Assembly (NCBI GenBank): GCA_902779035.1
Contig: CACZAH010000013.1
Span: forward strand, 1-38,604
Source: an uncultured Erysipelotrichaceae bacterium
GTDB taxonomy: Bacteria; Bacillota_I; Bacilli_A; RF39; UBA660
Direction: 5' to 3'
DNA length: 38,604 bases
The notes beneath the pieces were generated by a model that searched no databases, was not told the DNA's origin, and saw nothing but the letters and a program-made list of their open reading frames with translations. Made by a program: the position numbers and the translations under genes. Shown here piece after piece: positions 523-35,580 of this stretch. Within the stretch, counting starts at the first letter, position 1, and every line of letters begins with the position of its first letter.

Positions 523-1560
523 TTATCCGTATAAGAACTCTCCTGTACCTTGATTGTAGTAGCACTCCTTACTCACTTTATCAAATAAACAAGGTCTACT
601 AGTTGAATCTATAACTGGGATATAGTCACGAACTAAATTAGCATTATCATATATCTTGGTATAATATAAATTAGCATATGATGGGAACCTTCCATAAGAT
701 GCGTCAAAAATTGTAAAATTTGTATTTATGACTGTTCCAAACTGTTTGGTATTTCCAAACTCATCAGTTACATTTATAGTACTATATATGTATTCTAATG
801 TAAAAACACGTTTGTCACTATAGCTATTATCAAAATTTTGTCCATCAATTCTAATTGTTCCGTCAGAAGACAACCCAAACCAACCTAAAGTTCCACTATT
901 GCAATTAATTAATACTTGAGATTTACTTGCAATTTTATTAAATTTAAATGAAATTTCTATTTTTGCATTTGTTGATAAAATTCCAGTATCTATATACTGT
1001 GTTCCTGTGCTCTCTAAATAATTAACCATTGTATATTTATTATTTTGATTATCCCAATAATTACCAACATCCACAATCGTACTATCCGTATTAAAATGTT
1101 TAACTAACTTAATAGAATAATCCTTATTATTTACTGTAATAGGTATATTTAAAATAAAATATCCATTATAGCTTGTACTAGACATAGTATCATAGTGTTC
1201 TGTAATATTAGGTGATTCTACTTTCATATCATCAGTTATTTCAAATGTATAATTATTAAATGTAATAGTCTTATCAGTAATACTATATACTAACTTATCA
1301 CTTGTTGAATCACTATATGTAAATAAGTAACACTTATCTCCATCACTGCATGTAGTAAGACTAGTAAGCTCTTTTTCTTTTAATCTTTTATTTATATTAT
1401 AAGATAGATTATCTTTTTCAACTAATGTATTAGTCATTGCACTCACTCTAGATAAATTATCTTTCATTATAAGTATTATATTAAATAATATAATCATAAT
1501 AACTGATGCTAAAGTAAATGATGTAATAAGTTCTATAGTTGTAAAACCTTTCTTATTCAT
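523..1560 (-). CDS. Type IV prepilin-like protein with C-terminal LamG-like module
   Basis: 345 residues. The N-terminus is a class III-type prepilin signal: KKG followed by FTTIEL and a hydrophobic helix to about residue 30, with the conserved Glu at mature position 5. Residues 30-170 are an Asn/Thr-rich region I do not recognise. From about 180 (NYLESTGTQYIDTG) to the C-terminus (YYNQGTGEFLYG) lies a LamG/concanavalin-like module often seen on surface and phage tail proteins of gut Firmicutes. It is expected to be membrane-inserted, processed by a prepilin peptidase and displayed outside, perhaps as a minor pilin with binding activity (inference). AAAGGATGA upstream supports the ATG at 1560. 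It lies 46 nt downstream of a second prepilin with the same kind of module, probably in one operon. The ends of the two modules are far more alike than their N-terminal halves. Confidence 0.8.
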   Translation of the reverse strand: MNKKGFTTIELITSFTLASVIMIILFNIILIMKDNLSRVSAMTNTLVEKDNLSYNINKRLKEKELTSLTTCSDGDKCYLFTYSDSTSDKLVYSITDKTITFNNYTFEITDDMKVESPNITEHYDTMSSTSYNGYFILNIPITVNNKDYSIKLVKHFNTDSTIVDVGNYWDNQNNKYTMVNYLESTGTQYIDTGILSTNAKIEISFKFNKIASKSQVLINCNSGTLGWFGLSSDGTIRIDGQNFDNSYSDKRVFTLEYIYSTINVTDEFGNTKQFGTVINTNFTIFDASYGRFPSYANLYYTKIYDNANLVRDYIPVIDSTSRPCLFDKVSKECYYNQGTGEFLYG

Positions 1561-1606
1561 GAAATCATCCTTTCCTAAATATACATTTACTTAAATAATT
1601 ATCTTA

Positions 1607-2647
1607 CTATCCATAGAGGAACTCTCCTGTACCTTGATTGTAGTAGCACTCCTTCCCTACTTTATCAAACAAGCATGGTCTACTAGATGAGTCTATAACT
1701 GGGATATAGTCACGAACTAGATTTTCGCTATCATATAGTTTGCTATTGTATATTCTTGAAATACAGTATGCTTCAATACCAGTATTAGTGTTTCTAGCAC
1801 CAATATATAAATTTAGATTTGTAGAGAAATTTTGAAATACAAACGAAGCAACTTTATTATTATCTATGTATCCTCCAGTATCAGAAATTTCAAATGTATG
1901 GAGTTTGTTATCACTAAGAATATTAGTCGTAATTCCAGTGCTTCCATATCTAAAAAACCATTTAGATTGGTATATGCCTATTGCTAAATCGTACATTCCA
2001 TTTCTATTTAATGAACCATTAGTTTGAAAAGTATTTGATAGAAAAACTTGATCAATTATCATTCTACTATTTCCATTTGGTATAACTCCTGTATCAATAT
2101 ACTGTGTTCCTGTACTTTCCAAGTATTCAACACGTTTATACTTATTTCCTTCTGAATCATATACACTATCATCAAAATTGACCGTAATAGTCGCACACTC
2201 ACCATTATTAAACTCAGCTATTATTCTATAGTTATCACTTTTATTATCTATTTTTTTAATCATGTTTTTTAATGTCTTAGATAAACTTGATGTATCTACA
2301 TTATTTATATCTGCTTTAGTTAGTACTAATGTTTTAATATCTAAATTAGTAAGTAAATCTACTTGATTATCTAAATATTCAATATTAGTATAAGTATCAT
2401 CATTTTTATCCATAATAATTATATCATCATCATTAATTTTATCAATAATTAATGTAGCATCAATTGAGTTAACATACTCCTTAATACTATCTAATTTATA
2501 TAAATTATCTACATCATTATAAGTAAATGACTCATCATATTTACTTTCTACTTTATTAAACTGAATGAATACATACATTAATATAGTCGCAATTATAGTA
2601 GATACAATTAATGTCTCTACAAGCGCAAAAGCTTTAGAATTTTTCAT
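1607..2647 (-). CDS. Type IV prepilin-like protein with C-terminal LamG-like module
   Basis: 346 residues from the ATG at 2647. An in-frame ATG three codons earlier, at 2656, sits too close to the AAGGAA Shine-Dalgarno. The signal is KAFALVETLIV: Ala replaces Gly before the cleavage site, the Glu at +5 is kept, and a hydrophobic helix follows. A polar, Asp-rich region (about 35-165) precedes a LamG-like module that begins YLESTGTQYIDTG and ends YYNQGTGEFLYG. The gene is the first of a two-gene set with the prepilin at 523-1560 and is divergent from the ATPase gene at 2739. The last roughly 100 bases match its neighbour at 94 of 104 positions by eye, while the prepilin halves share only the helix pattern, which suggests duplication or gene conversion of the module end. 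Likely a surface-displayed minor pilin or pseudopilin; the ligand is unknown. Confidence 0.8.
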   Translation of the reverse strand: MKNSKAFALVETLIVSTIIATILMYVFIQFNKVESKYDESFTYNDVDNLYKLDSIKEYVNSIDATLIIDKINDDDIIIMDKNDDTYTNIEYLDNQVDLLTNLDIKTLVLTKADINNVDTSSLSKTLKNMIKKIDNKSDNYRIIAEFNNGECATITVNFDDSVYDSEGNKYKRVEYLESTGTQYIDTGVIPNGNSRMIIDQVFLSNTFQTNGSLNRNGMYDLAIGIYQSKWFFRYGSTGITTNILSDNKLHTFEISDTGGYIDNNKVASFVFQNFSTNLNLYIGARNTNTGIEAYCISRIYNSKLYDSENLVRDYIPVIDSSSRPCLFDKVGKECYYNQGTGEFLYG

Positions 2648-2738: not shown

Positions 2739-5372
2739 ATGTTAAAAGTATTTGATTTTGAGAAGACGCCAATTGTGGATATAGTAAATGAAATCTTAGT
2801 AGATGCATCATCTCGCGGGGCGTCTGATATTCACTTTGATCCTAAGGATAATATGCTCCAGATTAGAATTAGAATTGATGGAGAGTTAGTTGATTATGCA
2901 ACTGTACCAGAAGAATATATTAAAAACTTAATTACTAGAATTAAGATTATATCTGGCATGAATATTACTGAATCTAGACTTCCACAAGACGGCGCGATTA
3001 AAGGTGTTGTTAAAGATATTGAACTAGACTTACGTGTTTCTTCTATTAACACTAATAAAGGAGAAAAAATTGTTATACGTATACTTGACTATGCACTTAG
3101 TTTAAATGGTATAGAACAACTTGGTTTTACAGATTATAACTATAAACGTGTAATTGAAATGATTAGTAAACCTAATGGAATAATATTAGTTACTGGTGCG
3201 ACTGGTACTGGTAAAACTACTACTGTATACTCAATGTTACAAAGACTAAGTAATGATACTACTAATATTATGTCAATTGAAGATCCAGTTGAAATGGATT
3301 TAGAGAATGTAAACCAGATACAAGTTAATGCAGATATTGGTTTAACATTCGCAACTGCTTTGCGTTCTATCTTAAGACAAGACCCTAATATAATAATGAT
3401 AGGAGAAATAAGAGATAGTGAAACTGCTACAATTGCCATTCGTGCATCAGTAACAGGTCACTTAGTATTGTCTACTCTACATACCAATGATTCTCTATCT
3501 ACTATTGAACGTCTTCTTGATATGGATGTAGAAAAATATTTACTTGCTGAAGCCCTTGAAGGAATTATATCTCAAAGACTTGCACGAAGATTATGTCCAC
3601 ATTGTAAGAAGTTAAGAAAAACTACTACTTATGAAAAAGACTTAATTAAGAAAACTCTTAATATAGATGTAGATGAAATATATGAAGCTGTTGGTTGTGA
3701 ACACTGTAATCGTGGTTATAAGGGTAGAATTGCTTTTCAAGAAGTACTTACAATTGATCAAAAAATACAAGATGCACTTAGTATGAATATAAGAAAAGAT
3801 AAATTAAGAAATCTTGTATATAATGATTCAGTTATTACTCTACTTCAAGATGGTATGATTAAGGTTGTTAGAGGAGATACTACAATTGAAGAGTTATTAA
3901 GGCTTGTTGAATTTGACGATGAATCTATTATTACATTTAATTTATCAAAAGATATTCTTGATAGTGAACTTAATAATGTAATAGAATATCAAGATACTAT
4001 AAAAGATATAAATACTAGTGATGATATAGATAACAATACAATGGATGATATAGTCGAAGACGAAATAATTGTTCCAGAAACTAGTGATGTTGTAATTGAT
4101 TCTATTGAAGATAATGAAGATGACAATATAGATGTCGATAACACAGATATTAATAATATGGATGTTTTAGATAACGATGAAGAGTTTATCAATAAAATTG
4201 ATGAGGTTATTACTGAAAAAGAAGAAAAGAAAAAGTCTAGACTATTTGGAAGAAAGAAAGATAAGAAGAAAAAAGAGAAATCTTCTACTGAAGAGCAAGA
4301 TGAAATTATTGATGAGAATGATATAAATGATGACATAGAGGATAATACTACTGAGAACATTGAAATAAATGAAGAGTCTGAAACTGAAAATGATTTAGAT
4401 AATATGGATTCTTTAGATAATGATCAAGAATTTACTGATAAGATTGATGAGGTTATTACTGAAGAAAACAATAATGATGTTGATAATAAGTTTGATGAAG
4501 ATAATATAGAAACTATTACTAACGATGATGATATTATAACTGATGATACTTTAACTATCGAGGTAAATCAAGATATAAATAAAAACGAAGAAGATTCTTT
4601 AAACAAACCTAAGAAGAAAAAGAAAAAGAGAAAAAAGAAAAACAAAACTAAGGATAAAGAAGTTCAAGAAGAGTTTGAAGATACTATTGTTGATGGAAAT
4701 AATTCAAATGAGTTAATAGAAGACAATTCTAACCTTGAATTAGAAAAAGATACTATTAAAGAATCTCAAAAATTAGAAATACCTGATGAAAATTCAGATG
4801 ATAATATCGTTAATGATGATAGTACTTTTATTACTAAGATTGAAAGCTTAGTTAAAGGAAAAAGAAAGAAAGAAAAACAAGATATTGATATAATTGATGA
4901 AATTACTGATGAGTCTAATATTACAGATGCAAATCCAAGTAATGAACCTACTCAAGACGAAATAACGGATAATGAAATAGCTGAATTAGAGGAAGCGATT
5001 GATTCAATTAAGATTAATAATGATAAAGTAGTAGAAGAAAATGAAGATAATACTAATAATGAGATGTTAGAAAATACTATTAAGATATCAGTAAACGATG
5101 AAGATAACACTGATAATGAAATAAGCGTATCAGAGGTTAAAACAGTTAATATGGCTCCTATTGATAATGATGCAATGGAACCTCTTGATTATAATACTAG
5201 TTTTATTGATAAAATATATGATAGTATTAATACTAGTGAAAAAAGAATTATTGAGAAAGATAATATCGATTACGAAAAGATTGAAAGACTTGAAGATATT
5301 CAAGATGAAATTGGTAGTAGAGTTTCTAGAATGTTAAATAAAAAAAGATATAGAAAAAAGAAATCCGAGTGA
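2739..5372 (+). CDS. PilB/GspE/ComGA-family assembly ATPase with a long acidic C-terminal tail
   Basis: 877 residues. Residues 1 to about 385 are a type II/IV secretion ATPase: the N2 domain (SRGASDIHFDP), Walker A GATGTGKTT at 153-161, a Walker B region with GEIRD near 222, a His-box region (LSTLHTND), and zinc-binding cysteines at 286, 289, 320 and 323. It lacks the N-terminal MshEN/N1 domain of full PilB, so the core resembles ComGA. Such enzymes hydrolyse ATP at the inner face of the membrane to drive pilin polymerisation. The rest, about 490 residues, is Asp/Glu/Asn-rich with Lys-rich patches and looks disordered. It contains four spaced copies of a motif like F-I/T-x-K-I (near residues 483, 565, 696 and 819). 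AAGGTGATAA precedes the ATG. A hairpin terminator overlaps the stop. Divergent prepilin genes fit the function. Confidence 0.9.
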   Translation: MLKVFDFEKTPIVDIVNEILVDASSRGASDIHFDPKDNMLQIRIRIDGELVDYATVPEEYIKNLITRIKIISGMNITESRLPQDGAIKGVVKDIELDLRVSSINTNKGEKIVIRILDYALSLNGIEQLGFTDYNYKRVIEMISKPNGIILVTGATGTGKTTTVYSMLQRLSNDTTNIMSIEDPVEMDLENVNQIQVNADIGLTFATALRSILRQDPNIIMIGEIRDSETATIAIRASVTGHLVLSTLHTNDSLSTIERLLDMDVEKYLLAEALEGIISQRLARRLCPHCKKLRKTTTYEKDLIKKTLNIDVDEIYEAVGCEHCNRGYKGRIAFQEVLTIDQKIQDALSMNIRKDKLRNLVYNDSVITLLQDGMIKVVRGDTTIEELLRLVEFDDESIITFNLSKDILDSELNNVIEYQDTIKDINTSDDIDNNTMDDIVEDEIIVPETSDVVIDSIEDNEDDNIDVDNTDINNMDVLDNDEEFINKIDEVITEKEEKKKSRLFGRKKDKKKKEKSSTEEQDEIIDENDINDDIEDNTTENIEINEESETENDLDNMDSLDNDQEFTDKIDEVITEENNNDVDNKFDEDNIETITNDDDIITDDTLTIEVNQDINKNEEDSLNKPKKKKKKRKKKNKTKDKEVQEEFEDTIVDGNNSNELIEDNSNLELEKDTIKESQKLEIPDENSDDNIVNDDSTFITKIESLVKGKRKKEKQDIDIIDEITDESNITDANPSNEPTQDEITDNEIAELEEAIDSIKINNDKVVEENEDNTNNEMLENTIKISVNDEDNTDNEISVSEVKTVNMAPIDNDAMEPLDYNTSFIDKIYDSINTSEKRIIEKDNIDYEKIERLEDIQDEIGSRVSRMLNKKRYRKKKSE

Positions 5373-5758: not shown

Positions 5759-6101
5759 TTTCAATTTGTTTATTAATACTATTTTGAATTAATGCAGTAG
5801 AAACTATACCTAATCCAATAAACTGTAATACTAAGTATAAAACTGAATTATCTGATGCATAATCAACTTTTTCTCTTTCAACAATATACATAGATTTACC
5901 CATTTGATATACCCAATAATATCCATAAATTCCACAAGTAACTAGTGTTAGTAAAAATGCAGTTCCTCCTGATGTATTATATACTTTACCTTTAGAAATT
6001 CTTACTACATCATCAGTAATAGAAATAAACCAATAAATACCATAAATACCAAGTGTAACTATAGATAATAATATACAAATACCAATACTTCTTTGCTTCA
6101 T
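5745..6101 (-). CDS. DUF4234 family membrane protein
   Basis: 118 residues. Two Gly-rich membrane segments with the family's repeated pattern (LSIVTLGIYGIYWF and LLTLVTCGIYGYYWVYQ) and a third hydrophobic segment near the C-terminus identify DUF4234. Function is unknown; members sit in the cytoplasmic membrane and often accompany zinc-ribbon or DUF2752 proteins. AAAGGAGTG lies just before the ATG. It is the first gene of a two-gene unit with the DUF2752 protein and has its own promoter at 6122-6150. Confidence 0.8.
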   Translation of the reverse strand: MKQRSIGICILLSIVTLGIYGIYWFISITDDVVRISKGKVYNTSGGTAFLLTLVTCGIYGYYWVYQMGKSMYIVEREKVDYASDNSVLYLVLQFIGLGIVSTALIQNSINKQIENVEA

Positions 6102-6121
6102 AAAACACTCCTTTCATTATC

Positions 6122-6150
6122 AATTTATCATGAATTACATATTATGTCAA
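6122..6150 (-). promoter_or_regulatory. Promoter of the DUF4234-DUF2752 pair
   Basis: On the minus strand TTGACA (6150-6145), a 17-bp spacer, then TAAATT (6127-6122) preceded by TGA, which gives an extended -10. This is one of the closest matches to the vegetative consensus in the window. Confidence 0.7.
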
Positions 6151-6193
6151 ATTAATTTTATAAAAATATTTATCTTACTGAATAATATGTAAT

Positions 6194-7492: not shown

Positions 7493-8983
7493 TTATAAAC
7501 TTAACTGATAAGGACTTTGTTCCGTTCCTTCACCTGAATCTATTTTGATATTAGATACTAGATACAGACTTGGACGAACGCCATAAGAACCGTTCGAATT
7601 GTAGTAGTGGACATTGCCCAAAACGAACAGAGTGAACGCTTCATACGAGTCGCCCGAACCAGGCGACAAAAGCCTCTGGTAAGAATTACTATTAGTATTG
7701 TATATCCAGCCTTGTGTTGGTGTTCCTCCTTTATTAGTTTGACAACTATATCCATCTGTATAACAAGTATTATCTACTCCTAATGCATAGGTATATGTAT
7801 AATCACTTGGATACATTAACGCTATTTTTCCATTCCATGATATACTTCTTCCACTATATACTGTTGTTCCACGCTCCCAAGCATACATATCTGGTGTTGA
7901 TCCAAAATGTGTTGTTGAATCATATGCTCTTCCACCTAAATAATATTTAGTATCTGCAATCATACTCTTACTTGTAGCTTCTATTCCATTATAATAATCT
8001 CCATTTAAATATGTATTTAGTGTTGCAGTTGACCATTCATTTTCACCATTTGAATCCCATTTCATATCACTTGATAGTTTCCCATTTCTTACTATCTTTA
8101 TTCTTTGTTCTGTATTACCATTTCCATCTTCTACTGTAAACACACCAATAATTCTCCATAATTCATTGTTAAATGTTACATAGTTATTTGGATTAGATCC
8201 TATGTATCTATAATCAGTTAAAGCTCCAGTTTGTTCTGTTGCCGGATGTTCAAATGTATACATTTCAGAAGTATTTCCATCTGTATAATTTGTTACAGTT
8301 ACTGGATTTGCTTTTGCAAGTAAATCATTTACTGCACTAGGTGGTTCTACTATACTACCATAATGATAATATCCATCTTCATTATCACTTGTTACATCTA
8401 CATTGTTTACTTTACATTTAGTCATGTAAATAGTTCCATCATAGTTAACTGTAACTTCACATGCTACTGGTTTACCTTTGTAATCTATTGTTAAAGTTGT
8501 ATAATCTTCTACTGGATTACCATTTGTATTAAAGTATGCAACTGATGCAGTTTTTAGTGCTAATCCATACATATCTACATACTCTTCATTTGTTAAATCT
8601 CTCGTACCATAATGATACCATCCATCTTCAGTAGATGAATCTTTTACATCTATGTTATTTACTTTACACTCAGATAAGTATAATCCTCCATTTTCTTTCA
8701 TAGCCATTACATTACATACTACATTAGAACCACTATATTCTATTTGTAGATTTGGTAACTGTTCGTTTGTTGGAAATGTACCTGTATCTAGTAAATATGA
8801 TGCAATAGCTAACTCTACACTTCTTCCATATGCATCTACACTTCTTTTTCTCGCACTTATTTTAGCTTTTCTAATTATAGACATTACCAGTGGTGTTACG
8901 ATAAGTGCGATTATTGCCATAATTACAAGTACTGCAATTAATTCAATCAACGTAAAACCACGTTTTCTTCTAATCTTTATCAT
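7493..8983 (-). CDS. Prepilin-like protein with large C-terminal domain and GC-rich, possibly hypervariable end
   Basis: 496 residues. A type IV prepilin signal (RRKRG, then FTLIELIAVLVIMAIIALIV) is followed by a spacer with two similar CEVTV/CNVMA...KCKVNN segments (about 60-210). The C-terminal domain (about 245-496) begins near YVTFNNELWRIIGVF and ends with YGVRPSLYL, a module common in uncultured gut Firmicutes and similar in style to DUF6273 or C-type-lectin-like domains. Bases 7571-7680, coding for about residues 435-471, are near 51% GC against about one third around them. They use TCG, GGC, GTC, CAC and TAC codons that are rare elsewhere, as in the variable region of a diversity-generating retroelement target. 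A 31-base homopolymer and a conserved block lie upstream. The paralogue at 26784 shares the helix and spacer. Likely surface displayed. Confidence 0.8.
   Translation of the reverse strand: MIKIRRKRGFTLIELIAVLVIMAIIALIVTPLVMSIIRKAKISARKRSVDAYGRSVELAIASYLLDTGTFPTNEQLPNLQIEYSGSNVVCNVMAMKENGGLYLSECKVNNIDVKDSSTEDGWYHYGTRDLTNEEYVDMYGLALKTASVAYFNTNGNPVEDYTTLTIDYKGKPVACEVTVNYDGTIYMTKCKVNNVDVTSDNEDGYYHYGSIVEPPSAVNDLLAKANPVTVTNYTDGNTSEMYTFEHPATEQTGALTDYRYIGSNPNNYVTFNNELWRIIGVFTVEDGNGNTEQRIKIVRNGKLSSDMKWDSNGENEWSTATLNTYLNGDYYNGIEATSKSMIADTKYYLGGRAYDSTTHFGSTPDMYAWERGTTVYSGRSISWNGKIALMYPSDYTYTYALGVDNTCYTDGYSCQTNKGGTPTQGWIYNTNSNSYQRLLSPGSGDSYEAFTLFVLGNVHYYNSNGSYGVRPSLYLVSNIKIDSGEGTEQSPYQLSL
7555..7690 (-). 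other. GC-rich candidate variable region at the 3' end of the prepilin-like gene
   Basis: The stretch coding from about SYQRLLSP to GVRPSLYL has a sharp GC rise (56 of 110 bases at 7571-7680). Many codons have the form NNC/NNT (GGC, GAC, TAT, GTT, GTC, CAC, TAC, AAT, AAC) beside constant TCG, GCG and TTC codons. That pattern is expected when AAY codons of a template are mutated at adenines. No matching template repeat or reverse transcriptase is in the window. Confidence 0.45.
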
Positions 8984-26783: not shown

Positions 26784-27842
26784 CTAATCAATTTTAGTAA
26801 TGTCAGCTGATTTGTTTAATTCTAGGACAGGACGGACTTTAAAATCAACATCTCCACTGTAATTCTCATATGAATCACTATATATAGCTCCTAAACCTAA
26901 TCTACCAAAACAGCCTGGTGCCCACATGTAACCTGTTGAATCATTATACGGAGTCATGGTCCAATACGCATAATTTTCACCCATTACCCATTCAGGCGTT
27001 GAATTAGTTGCTCTATATCCATTTTCTGTTCCCTGCTCATAATATTCATACCCCAAATTATTCATTAATTCGTCATATGTTATTAATCGAGCTATGTAAT
27101 TATTATCAGTTCCAAATTTGTCTTGAGCCCACGCATCTACAACATATTTTACTTCAGATTGCGCATAATCTGATGTACATCCGCTTGATATATTACCAGT
27201 ATTCACGTGTCCACACGATGAACTCGAATAGAAAATCATTCCTCCATAACCTGTATTTCCTTGATCAACAACTTTTTGATACCACTCTGACGTTTCATCT
27301 GTTGTCACGTACATGTTTACATGGTTAAGTTCTGTGTTAACTCCGCCGTATGTACTTACTTCAGTTACTGTTAAAGGTTCAGCTTTAAGCATTGTAACCT
27401 TATCATTTTTTGAATCACTGTTCTCTATCACATAAAAGTTTACTCCGTTATATGTAACTTCATCTCCTATATTATAAGACTCATAACTTGGTGATTTGTC
27501 ACTACCATATGCATATCCTTCTACACTTCTTCCTCCAACTGTACAACCAGCTAAATATACTGTAGAATCACTATTTAACTGTGTAGTCTCACATGTTACA
27601 GCATCTCCTGAATATTCAATAGTTAGTTGGTCTATACTTGTTGGAAAATCTCCTGTATCTAGTAGATAACCTGCAATTGCAAGTTCAATACTTCTACCAT
27701 ATGCATCAATACTTCTTTTATCCGCAGATATTCTTGCTTTTCTTATTATTGTCATAACTAATGGAGTTACTATGAGTGCAATTATTGCCATAATTACTAA
27801 TACTGCTATAAGTTCGATTAATGTGAACGCTTTTCTACATAT
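26784..27842 (-). CDS. Prepilin-like protein with C-terminal domain; start codon disrupted
   Basis: About 352 residues if read from ATA at 27842. The prepilin helix (RKAFTLIELIAVLVIMAIIALIV) is complete and closely matches the protein at 7493, including ADKRSIDAYGRSIELAIAGYLLDTG. The region after about 110 is a different C-terminal domain, ending KVRPVLEL, related in style to the formylglycine/C-type-lectin-like modules of gut bacteria. The expected ATG (27838-27840), with AGAAGG upstream, is one base out of frame and is followed directly by TAG. Translation must therefore begin at ATA, or inside the helix at 27791 (which removes the signal), or the gene is inactive. It has a downstream terminator and the conserved 40-nt block upstream. 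Confidence 0.75.
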   Translation of the reverse strand: MCRKAFTLIELIAVLVIMAIIALIVTPLVMTIIRKARISADKRSIDAYGRSIELAIAGYLLDTGDFPTSIDQLTIEYSGDAVTCETTQLNSDSTVYLAGCTVGGRSVEGYAYGSDKSPSYESYNIGDEVTYNGVNFYVIENSDSKNDKVTMLKAEPLTVTEVSTYGGVNTELNHVNMYVTTDETSEWYQKVVDQGNTGYGGMIFYSSSSCGHVNTGNISSGCTSDYAQSEVKYVVDAWAQDKFGTDNNYIARLITYDELMNNLGYEYYEQGTENGYRATNSTPEWVMGENYAYWTMTPYNDSTGYMWAPGCFGRLGLGAIYSDSYENYSGDVDFKVRPVLELNKSADITKID

Positions 27843-31972: not shown

Positions 31973-32178
31973 AGCCATATAAGAATTCTTTAGTACCTTG
32001 ATTGTAATAGAGTTTACCCTATACCTTATCATATAAACATGCAACACCTTTACTATCTAATACAGGGATAAAATCTCTTCAAAATATGATCAAATACACT
32101 AAATTTTAATATTCCAATTAAACTTTAAACAAATATCAATATATTGTATATCCATATTTTCAATATAATTTATTCATA
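31971..32178 (-). pseudogene. Decayed LamG-like module (third copy)
   Basis: Read on the minus strand, NYIENMDIQYIDI matches NYLESTGTQYIDT of the prepilin modules, and after in-frame stops RDFIPVLDSKGVACLYDKV, a TAG, and GKLYYNQGTKEFLYG match their C-termini. The centre of the domain is missing. At least three stops fall within the remnant, and no start or prepilin half remains. The terminator follows directly. It is the ghost of a further pilin-type or surface gene. Confidence 0.85.
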
Positions 32179-32196
32179 CAAGATATTATCTTTACA

Positions 32197-33081
32197 TTAA
32201 ATAAGCTCATACTCACGTGATATCATTCTACCTTCTTTATAATAATGCATAACAAACTTATTATCTATTTTTACAATTATTATTCCTATAGTTTTATTCT
32301 GATTAATAGATTTAACATGTTCATCTATATAATTCATATACACCAAAGTTTGACCTATATGTTCTTTTTTTAATTCAGTTACTTTAAGTTCAACTACTAC
32401 AAAAGCATTATAAATATAATTAAACAATAATAAATCGATATAATTATATGAATCTCCTATCTTAATCTTATATTCATTTTTCACATAACTATAGCCATCA
32501 CCAAGTTCATCTAGAAACTCATTTAGATTTTCCAATACTAGTCTCTGCAACATTTTCTCTGATATATTATCCACACCAATTGTACTTCTAATTAGTATAG
32601 GATTCTTTACAGTATCAACTAATTCTAAATCATCATTACTTACTATTTTATTTCTAGTATCTTCATCAAGTCTTTCATATTCCTTGTTTTTAATTCTTTT
32701 ACGTAAATTCCTTACTGTGAGCTTATTACTAATAACAGCATTTATGTAATAGTTTATTGCATTAATATCATCCAACACTACAAGTTCAACATAATGACTA
32801 TATGATAATAAGTGCGACAGTGTCGCACCTTTTTGAATAACCATATAAAATTGTCTCATTCTCTTTAGTGCCGAAACAGTATATCCCTTACCAACTTCTT
32901 TAGTTAATTGTTCTGAATACTTTTTTACAATTGCCTCACCATATTTTTTACCAGCTTTTTTAATTAATCCACCAACATCATAATAAGTAGTTAAATCACT
33001 CTTATTTTTAGAATAATCCTTTACTCTCTTAGTTAGCTCATTATCTATAAGTAGTTCTTTAATGTTATTATAAAAATCCAT
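32197..33081 (-). CDS. DUF1016 (YhcG) family PD-(D/E)XK nuclease-like protein
   Basis: 294 residues from the ATG at 33081, which has GGTGATAAT upstream; the 21 codons above it lack a ribosome site. The N-terminal DUF1016_N pattern (YYDVGGLIKKAGKKYGEAIVKKYSEQL, then YTVSALKRMRQFY and LLSYSHYVELVVLDD) is followed by a C-terminal nuclease-like domain with the acidic D...ExK arrangement (YNYIDLLLFNYIYN, then FVVVELKV). The family is scattered, often near mobile DNA and restriction-type genes, and its role is uncertain. Between a LamG pseudogene and a palindrome it looks like an accessory insertion between yqfC and the spoVA operon. Confidence 0.85.
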   Translation of the reverse strand: MDFYNNIKELLIDNELTKRVKDYSKNKSDLTTYYDVGGLIKKAGKKYGEAIVKKYSEQLTKEVGKGYTVSALKRMRQFYMVIQKGATLSHLLSYSHYVELVVLDDINAINYYINAVISNKLTVRNLRKRIKNKEYERLDEDTRNKIVSNDDLELVDTVKNPILIRSTIGVDNISEKMLQRLVLENLNEFLDELGDGYSYVKNEYKIKIGDSYNYIDLLLFNYIYNAFVVVELKVTELKKEHIGQTLVYMNYIDEHVKSINQNKTIGIIIVKIDNKFVMHYYKEGRMISREYELI

Positions 33082-33372
33082 ATTATCACCACAACAACTA
33101 CTTATAGCACTCCCTCTAAAACAAGTCAAATGACTATTTTTCATAAACTACTTACTATTTTTTTCAGAATATTTATAAAAATAATATTTTTGTTAAATAA
33201 CTGTATCAACAGCACTACAAATTTTAAAAAAACGTATAAATATTTTTTTCTTTAAATTATATAATTAATTTAAAGAAAGTACAAAGTATGCGCAATAAGA
33301 GTTTAAAACATTTTCTATTCCCTAAATTACTCATATATTCAAACACAACACTATTTTTATTTATACAAATGA
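33082..33372. other. 291-nt gap: no gene seen, one palindrome
   Basis: AT-rich sequence upstream of the DUF1016 gene and downstream of spoVAE. It holds the 13-bp inverted repeat at 33247-33278. The 21 codons immediately upstream of the DUF1016 ATG are open but lack a ribosome site. No RNA gene is recognised. Confidence 0.5.
33247..33278. repeat. 13-bp perfect inverted repeat
   Basis: TTTCTTTAAATTA (33247-33259) and TAATTTAAAGAAA (33266-33278) are exact reverse complements with a 6-nt spacer. There is no T tract in the right place for a terminator on either strand, so it may be an operator or the end of a lost element. Confidence 0.6.
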
Positions 33373-35170: not shown

Positions 35171-35199
35171 TATTATGAATAGAAAGATTATTTTTATTC
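35171..35199 (-). promoter_or_regulatory. Sigma-G-like promoter of the spoVA operon
   Basis: On the minus strand GGAATA (GAATA at 35199-35195), a 17-bp spacer and CATAATA (35177-35171). The latter fits the sigma-G -10 pattern CATWHTA, and spoVA is controlled by sigma-G in B. subtilis. The -35 overlaps the stop of the upstream prepilin-like gene. Confidence 0.6.
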
Positions 35200-35580
35200 C
35201 CTAATATTTGAATATTTTGAACATTCTTCTAAAGAATCAATATATTCATAGTGATATTGATTGCTATAATACTTAATAAGCACACATCCTGTCATAGCAT
35301 CTTCAGTAACTGGATTAACAATCTTTTTAGCATCTATATATCCACTACTTACTATATCATTTAAATACATAACTTTAGGATTTTCACTATCTATTCTAAA
35401 GTTCGAATTAATAAAATATGTTTCTGCTGCTTGTTTTATTGTATTAACTTGATCATCATAAGCAGACTTCTTTGCTTCTTCCATTGAATCTTTTAGCGTT
35501 GGAATAAGTATTATTACTAAAACTGATAATATAACTATAATTGCAAGTAATTCTATAAGTGTAAATGCATTTTTTTTCAT
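35194..35580 (-). CDS. Small type IV prepilin-like protein
   Basis: 128 residues. A short class III-type signal (KKNA then FTLIELLAIIVILSVLVIILIPTL) precedes an alpha-helical spine and a small C-terminal domain with two Cys (TGCVLIKYYSNQYHYEYIDSLEECSK) that could form a disulphide, as in minor pilins. Simple PulG/ComGC-like organisation without an added module, unlike the other four copies. Its own extended -10 promoter lies upstream, after a terminator. It sits next to spoVAC without any sign of being part of that operon. Confidence 0.85.
   Translation of the reverse strand: MKKNAFTLIELLAIIVILSVLVIILIPTLKDSMEEAKKSAYDDQVNTIKQAAETYFINSNFRIDSENPKVMYLNDIVSSGYIDAKKIVNPVTEDAMTGCVLIKYYSNQYHYEYIDSLEECSKYSNIRE

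Follow-up and report, generated by a model that had tools for sequence, protein, structure and literature searches.

Two predicted type IV prepilins with replaceable C-terminal module cores beside gspE in an uncultured Erysipelotrichaceae bacterium

The window, i.e. the whole stretch of 38,604 nucleotides analysed here, is one contig (C13) of the genome assembly G000 (1.19 Mb, 51 contigs) of an uncultured Erysipelotrichaceae bacterium. Two genes lie in tandem on its minus strand, B followed by A. Gene A (523-1560) encodes 345 aa and gene B (1607-2656) 349 aa; the earlier note had placed the pair at 523-2647, which leaves out the first 9 bases of B as annotated (start at 2656). Each gene consists of an N-terminal pilin part (stem) and a module, the latter composed of start motif, core and end block (last 40 codons). 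In gene A, the stem occupies positions 1027-1560 and the module 526-1026, with start motif (VNYLESTGTQYIDTG) at 982-1026, exchangeable core at 646-981 and conserved end block at 526-645, all on the minus strand. Gene B is organized in the same way on this strand: stem 2132-2656 and module 1610-2131, with start motif (VEYLESTGTQYIDTG) at 2087-2131, exchangeable core at 1730-2086 and conserved end block at 1610-1729. Both start motifs were defined from an alignment of 25 modules. The genes are separated by a 46-nt spacer (1561-1606, minus strand) that contains the ribosome-binding site of A (AGGAAAGGA).

Divergently from B-A, on the plus strand, lies a gene for gspE/pilB-type assembly ATPase (2739-5372; Pfam T2SSE, E=1.5e-117). 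According to a genus-wide search, this is the sole gspE found in G000; T2SSF genes are present elsewhere in the genome, away from gspE-B-A. The ATPase carries an acidic, lysine-rich, low-complexity C-terminal tail of about 480 aa, the length of which differs among species (open frames of 449-905 aa).

A and B are predicted type IV prepilins, and their C-terminal modules are of one kind. Both begin with a short basic leader ending in G or A, followed by a hydrophobic helix with Glu at +5 (MNKK-G/FTTIELITSF in A, KNSKA/FALVETLIVST in B). Pfam N_methyl matches A weakly (12.5 bits, under the 21.2 cut-off), and B with 17.0 bits in one search and 21.2 bits, flagged over the cut-off, in another. The modules, about 170 aa long, open with VxYLESTGTQYIDTG and close with LVRDYIPVIDSxSRPCLFDKVxKECYYNQGTGEFLYG. 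The earlier description of two adjoining prepilins with a common module type thus holds for leaders, helices and both shared motifs. Since the same stems occur without the module (about 170 aa) in other species, and the module is found by itself and on other stems, A and B qualify as modular pilins, i.e. an N-terminal pilin module with an extra non-pilin module (PMC8179133). Modular pilins are widespread (PMC8179133).

Fusion of a prepilin helix with such a module, which the earlier note took to be undescribed, has in fact been reported. In Streptococcus sanguinis, the prepilin PilC carries Ig-like and ConA-like lectin modules, binds glycans through the latter and has been placed at the pilus tip by modelling (PMC9934059); PilB of the same bacterium carries a vWA module (PMC8179133). 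A and B share with PilC and PilB the class III signal peptide, the short pilin moiety, the bulky C-terminal binding module and the proposed tip position, and in both cases a single filament locus in a monoderm, Gram-positive-type bacterium encodes two modular pilins. On the contrary, there is no sequence match to PilC, and exchange of cores between loci and species, tandem modules and a module shared with phage are peculiar to the present system. The compared PilC strains display plain divergence (57% identity), unlike the block exchange described below. What is new is therefore the combinatorial exchange, phage included; no description of a change of modules in modular pilins was found in the literature searched.

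Laminin_G_3 was matched by two of 17 module sequences (best E=0.003). Structure models of the module were mediocre (pLDDT 67 and 66), and comparison of whole-model folds gave no PDB match at E<=0.001; the B model resembles laminin LG (Foldseek probability 0.69, E=0.068). A profile search of solved structures with the module returned one chance-level match, which was not PilC. The module is probably beta-rich, LamG/ConA-like and sugar-binding. When S. sanguinis PilC is taken as functional model, the module would bind a ligand at the filament tip, and A and B would serve in adhesion.

Direct comparison of A and B reveals conserved module edges around unlike interiors. As noted before, both modules open with the same YLESTGTQYIDTG, and pilin halves and module cores differ, their alignment being no better than background. 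The reported agreement of 94 out of 104 end positions is reached in the best 104-base window, located 11 bases before the gene end; over the terminal 104 bases, stop codon included, 92 positions agree. This is not due to chance, since 2000 codon shuffles reach at most 52/104. Without mismatch, the two genes share at most 36 nt in a row. Neither gene is a plain duplicate of the other, because the stems belong to different pilin classes, each with module-less orthologues in other species.

The earlier note proposed module exchange or gene conversion between pilin-type genes. Exchange between such genes was found, with the core as exchanged unit and the ends as its fixed frame. The high identity of the A and B ends mainly reflects protein conservation, the amino acid sequence of the end block being kept in nearly all copies. 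In most pairs, codons for the same amino acid in this block are identical about as often as codon usage and saturation predict; for example, A4 and B4 (genes A and B of species G004; the suffixes 0 and 3 denote those of G000 and G003) agree in 19 of 35 codons, with 19.5 expected. A modest excess was observed for A0-B0 (28/36, expected 20.7, z=2.6), along with B0-B3 (27/34), A0-B3 (26/34) and P21-P22 (25/34). End-block identity is 0.785 within and 0.739 between genomes (permutation p=0.0008), in a pooled test that retains clade structure. The ends thus appear to be held mainly by selection, and some short conversion tracts in addition are plausible but weakly supported.

We examined the locus in other members of the genus (G001-G006). 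All compared genomes are draft MAGs, one for each species; those of relatives bearing names come from uncultured Bacilli/Erysipelotrichaceae. The gspE-B-A organization, with orthologues of A and gspE adjoining B-A, is kept in G002, G003 and G004. In G002, B lacks the module (170 aa) and A has two. The same stems are found beside gspE without module in G001 and G006 (A of G006 is cut by the contig end), and in other genera of the family the A stem occurs alone (about 170 aa) or is followed by another C-terminal part. This indicates that stems are old and that modules were added, lost or changed.

Nucleotide identity along the locus changes abruptly at the module edges. Between G000 and G003, it is 0.77 in gspE, 0.85 in the B stem, 0.55 in the B core, 0.88 in the B end, 1.00 in the spacer, 0.81 in the A stem, 0.53 in the A core and 0.80 in the A end; comparison with G004 displays the same saw-tooth. 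Stems and module ends are hence conserved at the syntenic locus, whereas cores differ like unrelated modules. The A core shares 0.13-0.19 amino acid identity with its syntenic orthologues (nucleotide identity 0.46-0.53 to those of G004 and G003), and the B core 0.25 with orthologous cores (nucleotide identity 0.50-0.55). Mean amino acid identity of cores is 0.19 at orthologous loci (n=12) and 0.17 for all other pairs (n=288). The closest cores are found at non-orthologous places: P32-A3 (0.97), P6-D2 (0.80) and B0-D3 (0.40-0.41), D3 being a core on a different stem in G003. Identity profiles along the genes, proposed earlier as a check, thus have sharp boundaries at module edges instead of the smooth course expected after one duplication and plain divergence.

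Further module genes in G000 are P21 (contig C21), P32 (C32), E22 (C22) and P6 (C6), along with one decayed relic in the window (31974-32219, minus strand), in which remnants of module start and end are left, the core is deleted and stops occur in frame. P32 and A3 differ at 6 positions of a 460-nt core tract (98.7% identical), outside of which the figure is 119/554; a permutation scan never yielded such a tract (0/2000). Identity to G003 is only 82% in the core genes on either side of P32, by which contamination of C32 with G003 sequence is ruled out. In the stem tree, P32 groups with P21 and A0 with A3, while the core tree places P32 with A3. Swapping the groupings is rejected for both trees by AU tests (p=0.021 and 0.0099), so that stem and core trees are in conflict.

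Modules also occur on unlike stems. P6 of G000 and D2 of G002 have a common module (nucleotide identity 0.69-0.92) on dissimilar stems of two classes (0.45-0.70), and the switch from unlike to like sequence falls at the start motif. D2 and Q3C1 display the reverse, a common stem (0.76-0.88) with different cores (0.39-0.48). Q3C1 (L053:4861-6405, contig C1 of G003) is one prepilin with two tandem modules, the cores of which are 100% identical over 225 nt, while the module edges are only 73-89% identical.

Could all this have arisen with no recombination? A, B and their orthologues would then be ordinary duplicates, with cores diverging fast by diversifying selection and ends kept by purifying selection. 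Conservation of end blocks as protein, near synonymous saturation in most pairs, agrees with this, and such loops in lectins evolve fast. Nevertheless, divergence cannot yield a 98.7% identical core at non-orthologous loci of species whose core genes are 82% identical, nor one module on two stems (P6/D2) or 93% identity with a phage gene (see below). The cases P32/A3, P6/D2 and D2/phage refute plain divergence; it is unlikely also for the cores of A and B, for which no donor was found. We regard this explanation as a whole as very improbable.

Strain mixtures in binning, or repeats collapsed or misjoined in assembly, might imitate exchange as well. Several prepilin copies of G000 sit at contig ends, and P32 lies near one, its first 17 codons being absent behind a poly-T run; part of the P32 gene may be misassembled. 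However, its tract enters and leaves G003-like sequence between flanks of the lower identity given above, which takes two joins. A3 comes from an independent assembly (L035), the D2/phage match from an independent collection, and replaced cores at the orthologous locus occur in four species. An artefact as the source of the whole pattern is hardly credible.

Replacement of variable segments between conserved pilin-gene blocks by recombination, together with partial gene copies, is reminiscent of Neisseria pilE/pilS (PMC4877100). By analogy, A and B could be expression loci, and P32, the relic and P21 silent donors that convert them at high rate in one strain. The single locus beside gspE, the 5'-truncated P32, the decayed relic and conserved flanks (with the 36-nt exact match) enclosing the exchanged tract suit such a system. 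On the other hand, P21 is full length, with start codon and plausible ribosome-binding site, no sequence identical to today's A or B core, which could have served as donor, was found elsewhere in G000, and the missing 5' end of P32 may be an assembly artefact. It also differs from Neisseria that the added binding module varies and not the pilin head, and that donors extend to genes on other stems, to other species and to phage, in a comparison made across species with one genome each. Antigenic variation of this type is unlikely here.

Related modules were detected in phages as well: in a scan of viral contigs, 114 encode the module family. One phage contig carries a stand-alone 206-aa module gene (L164:2935-3555) flanked by a collagen-like tail gene and a holin. 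Its nucleotide identity is 93.1% to the D2 module over 598 nt and 85.0% to the P6 module over 554 nt; one patch is closer to P6 than to D2, resulting in a three-way mosaic. No similarity to D2 or P6 stems was found in L164. This identity of a phage tail-cluster gene with a pilin module links pilus specificity to phage receptor binding. Phages might be the main vehicle, with lectin modules circulating in tail loci as a common receptor-binding pool and captured by host pilins, or the reverse. The close match of the L164 module to D2 and P6, the mosaic and the many viral contigs with the family speak for it. Against it, targeted viral scans revealed no close copy of A0, B0, P32 or P21 cores, the GenBank phage collection contained no match to the A module, and the prepilin end was absent from all 62 viral module ORFs checked, leaving one clear case. 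We consider phages as main vehicle conceivable, yet somewhat doubtful. Just as tentative is the broader proposal that host pilus tips and phage tail loci share one recombining pool of binding modules, bacterium and phages trading lectin cassettes. If true, the same parts would underlie the evolution of both pilus specificity and phage adsorption, and this in a lineage where retroelements also hypermutate other pilins.

Taken together, cores are replaced at syntenic loci with sharp boundaries and conflicting trees, and modules are common to different stems and to a phage. We hold it to be likely that A and B serve as modular minor pilins in the one type IV filament machine encoded beside B-A, and that the core of their binding module is swapped as a cassette by homologous recombination. 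The short stem would pack into the filament and leave the C-terminal module exposed outside, most likely at the filament tip, with the binding surface carried by the core. As for mechanism, recombination would take place in the flanks: the start motif and the last 40 or so codons would supply homology, and the core would be replaced between them. Donors might be module genes elsewhere in the genome or genes acquired horizontally from other species; in at least one case the module appears to be shared with phage tail loci. A search for ComEC, the one competence component looked for, had no result in the 90%-complete genome, leaving natural transformation without support. It would seem that recombination furnishes the pili of these bacteria with new tips. 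Since stem, core and end are legible as blocks with separate inheritance, the tinkering model of PMC8179133 can be put to a direct test. In polymorphic toxins (PMC3482391), C-terminal cassettes behind a conserved front part are likewise replaced by recombination; unlike there, no toxin or immunity gene is present here and both module ends are conserved.

Prepilins are abundant in this lineage. G000 contains 37 prepilin N-terminal (N_methyl) sites, and with a stricter cut-off 11-39 prepilins per genome were counted in six of seven genus members, while other families of the class have 0-6. The seventh member, G005, lacks prepilins as well as gspE. With such numbers, the lineage would make a suitable natural model for the rapid evolution of surface binding in gut bacteria. 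About 25 G000 prepilins have one stem (EYSG type), many of them with another C-terminal domain. Other prepilin sites in the window are located at 7493-8983, 26784-27791 and 35194-35580; the frame of the second continues upstream of the listed ATG (RKAFTLIELIAVL...) without usual start codon at its head, and the start of the gene is possibly damaged.

Three EYSG-type prepilins are targets of diversity-generating retroelements, located at L150 (G000:C37, 2853-6140), L151 (G000:C18, 2734-6104) and L152 (G000:C3) with L135 (G000:C19). All mismatches between template and variable repeats fall on template adenines (19, 13 and 10 A-mismatches, no others). The loci encode reverse transcriptase (RVT_1), with bAvd and MutS_I-like accessory proteins at the C37 locus. 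The third target (C19) is presumably adjacent to its reverse transcriptase (C3), both being at contig ends. Pilin-type targets of retroelements include Bacteroides type V tip pilins, as cited in PMC12632263, and pilin-like DUF1566 targets, as cited in PMC6642488. As in those systems, pilus-displayed binding domains are diversified, with three true examples on sister prepilins of G000. A and B themselves have no template/variable repeat and vary by block replacement; retroelement hypermutation was rejected for them, none of the three template repeats being matched by either gene beyond background level. Domains displayed on pili are thus diversified in this lineage by at least two means, block exchange of module cores and retroelements on sister prepilins.

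Some genes recur next to module genes, among them nuclease-type ones that were considered as a possible means of mobility. On contig C32, the 3' end of an mscS-like gene (190 nt, 97% identical) is duplicated beyond an AAA/DUF4143-like gene adjoining P32 (L056:3681-4460 and 5922-6152). The site has other contents in G002 and G004, as if an element had inserted and restored the gene end. Genes for Rpn-like or DUF1016-like nucleases repeatedly adjoin module or pilin genes (window 31974-33144; L057 3497-5693; L058 2052-4023; L052 7584-9833), and an AAA/DUF4143-like gene is also among the neighbours of module genes.
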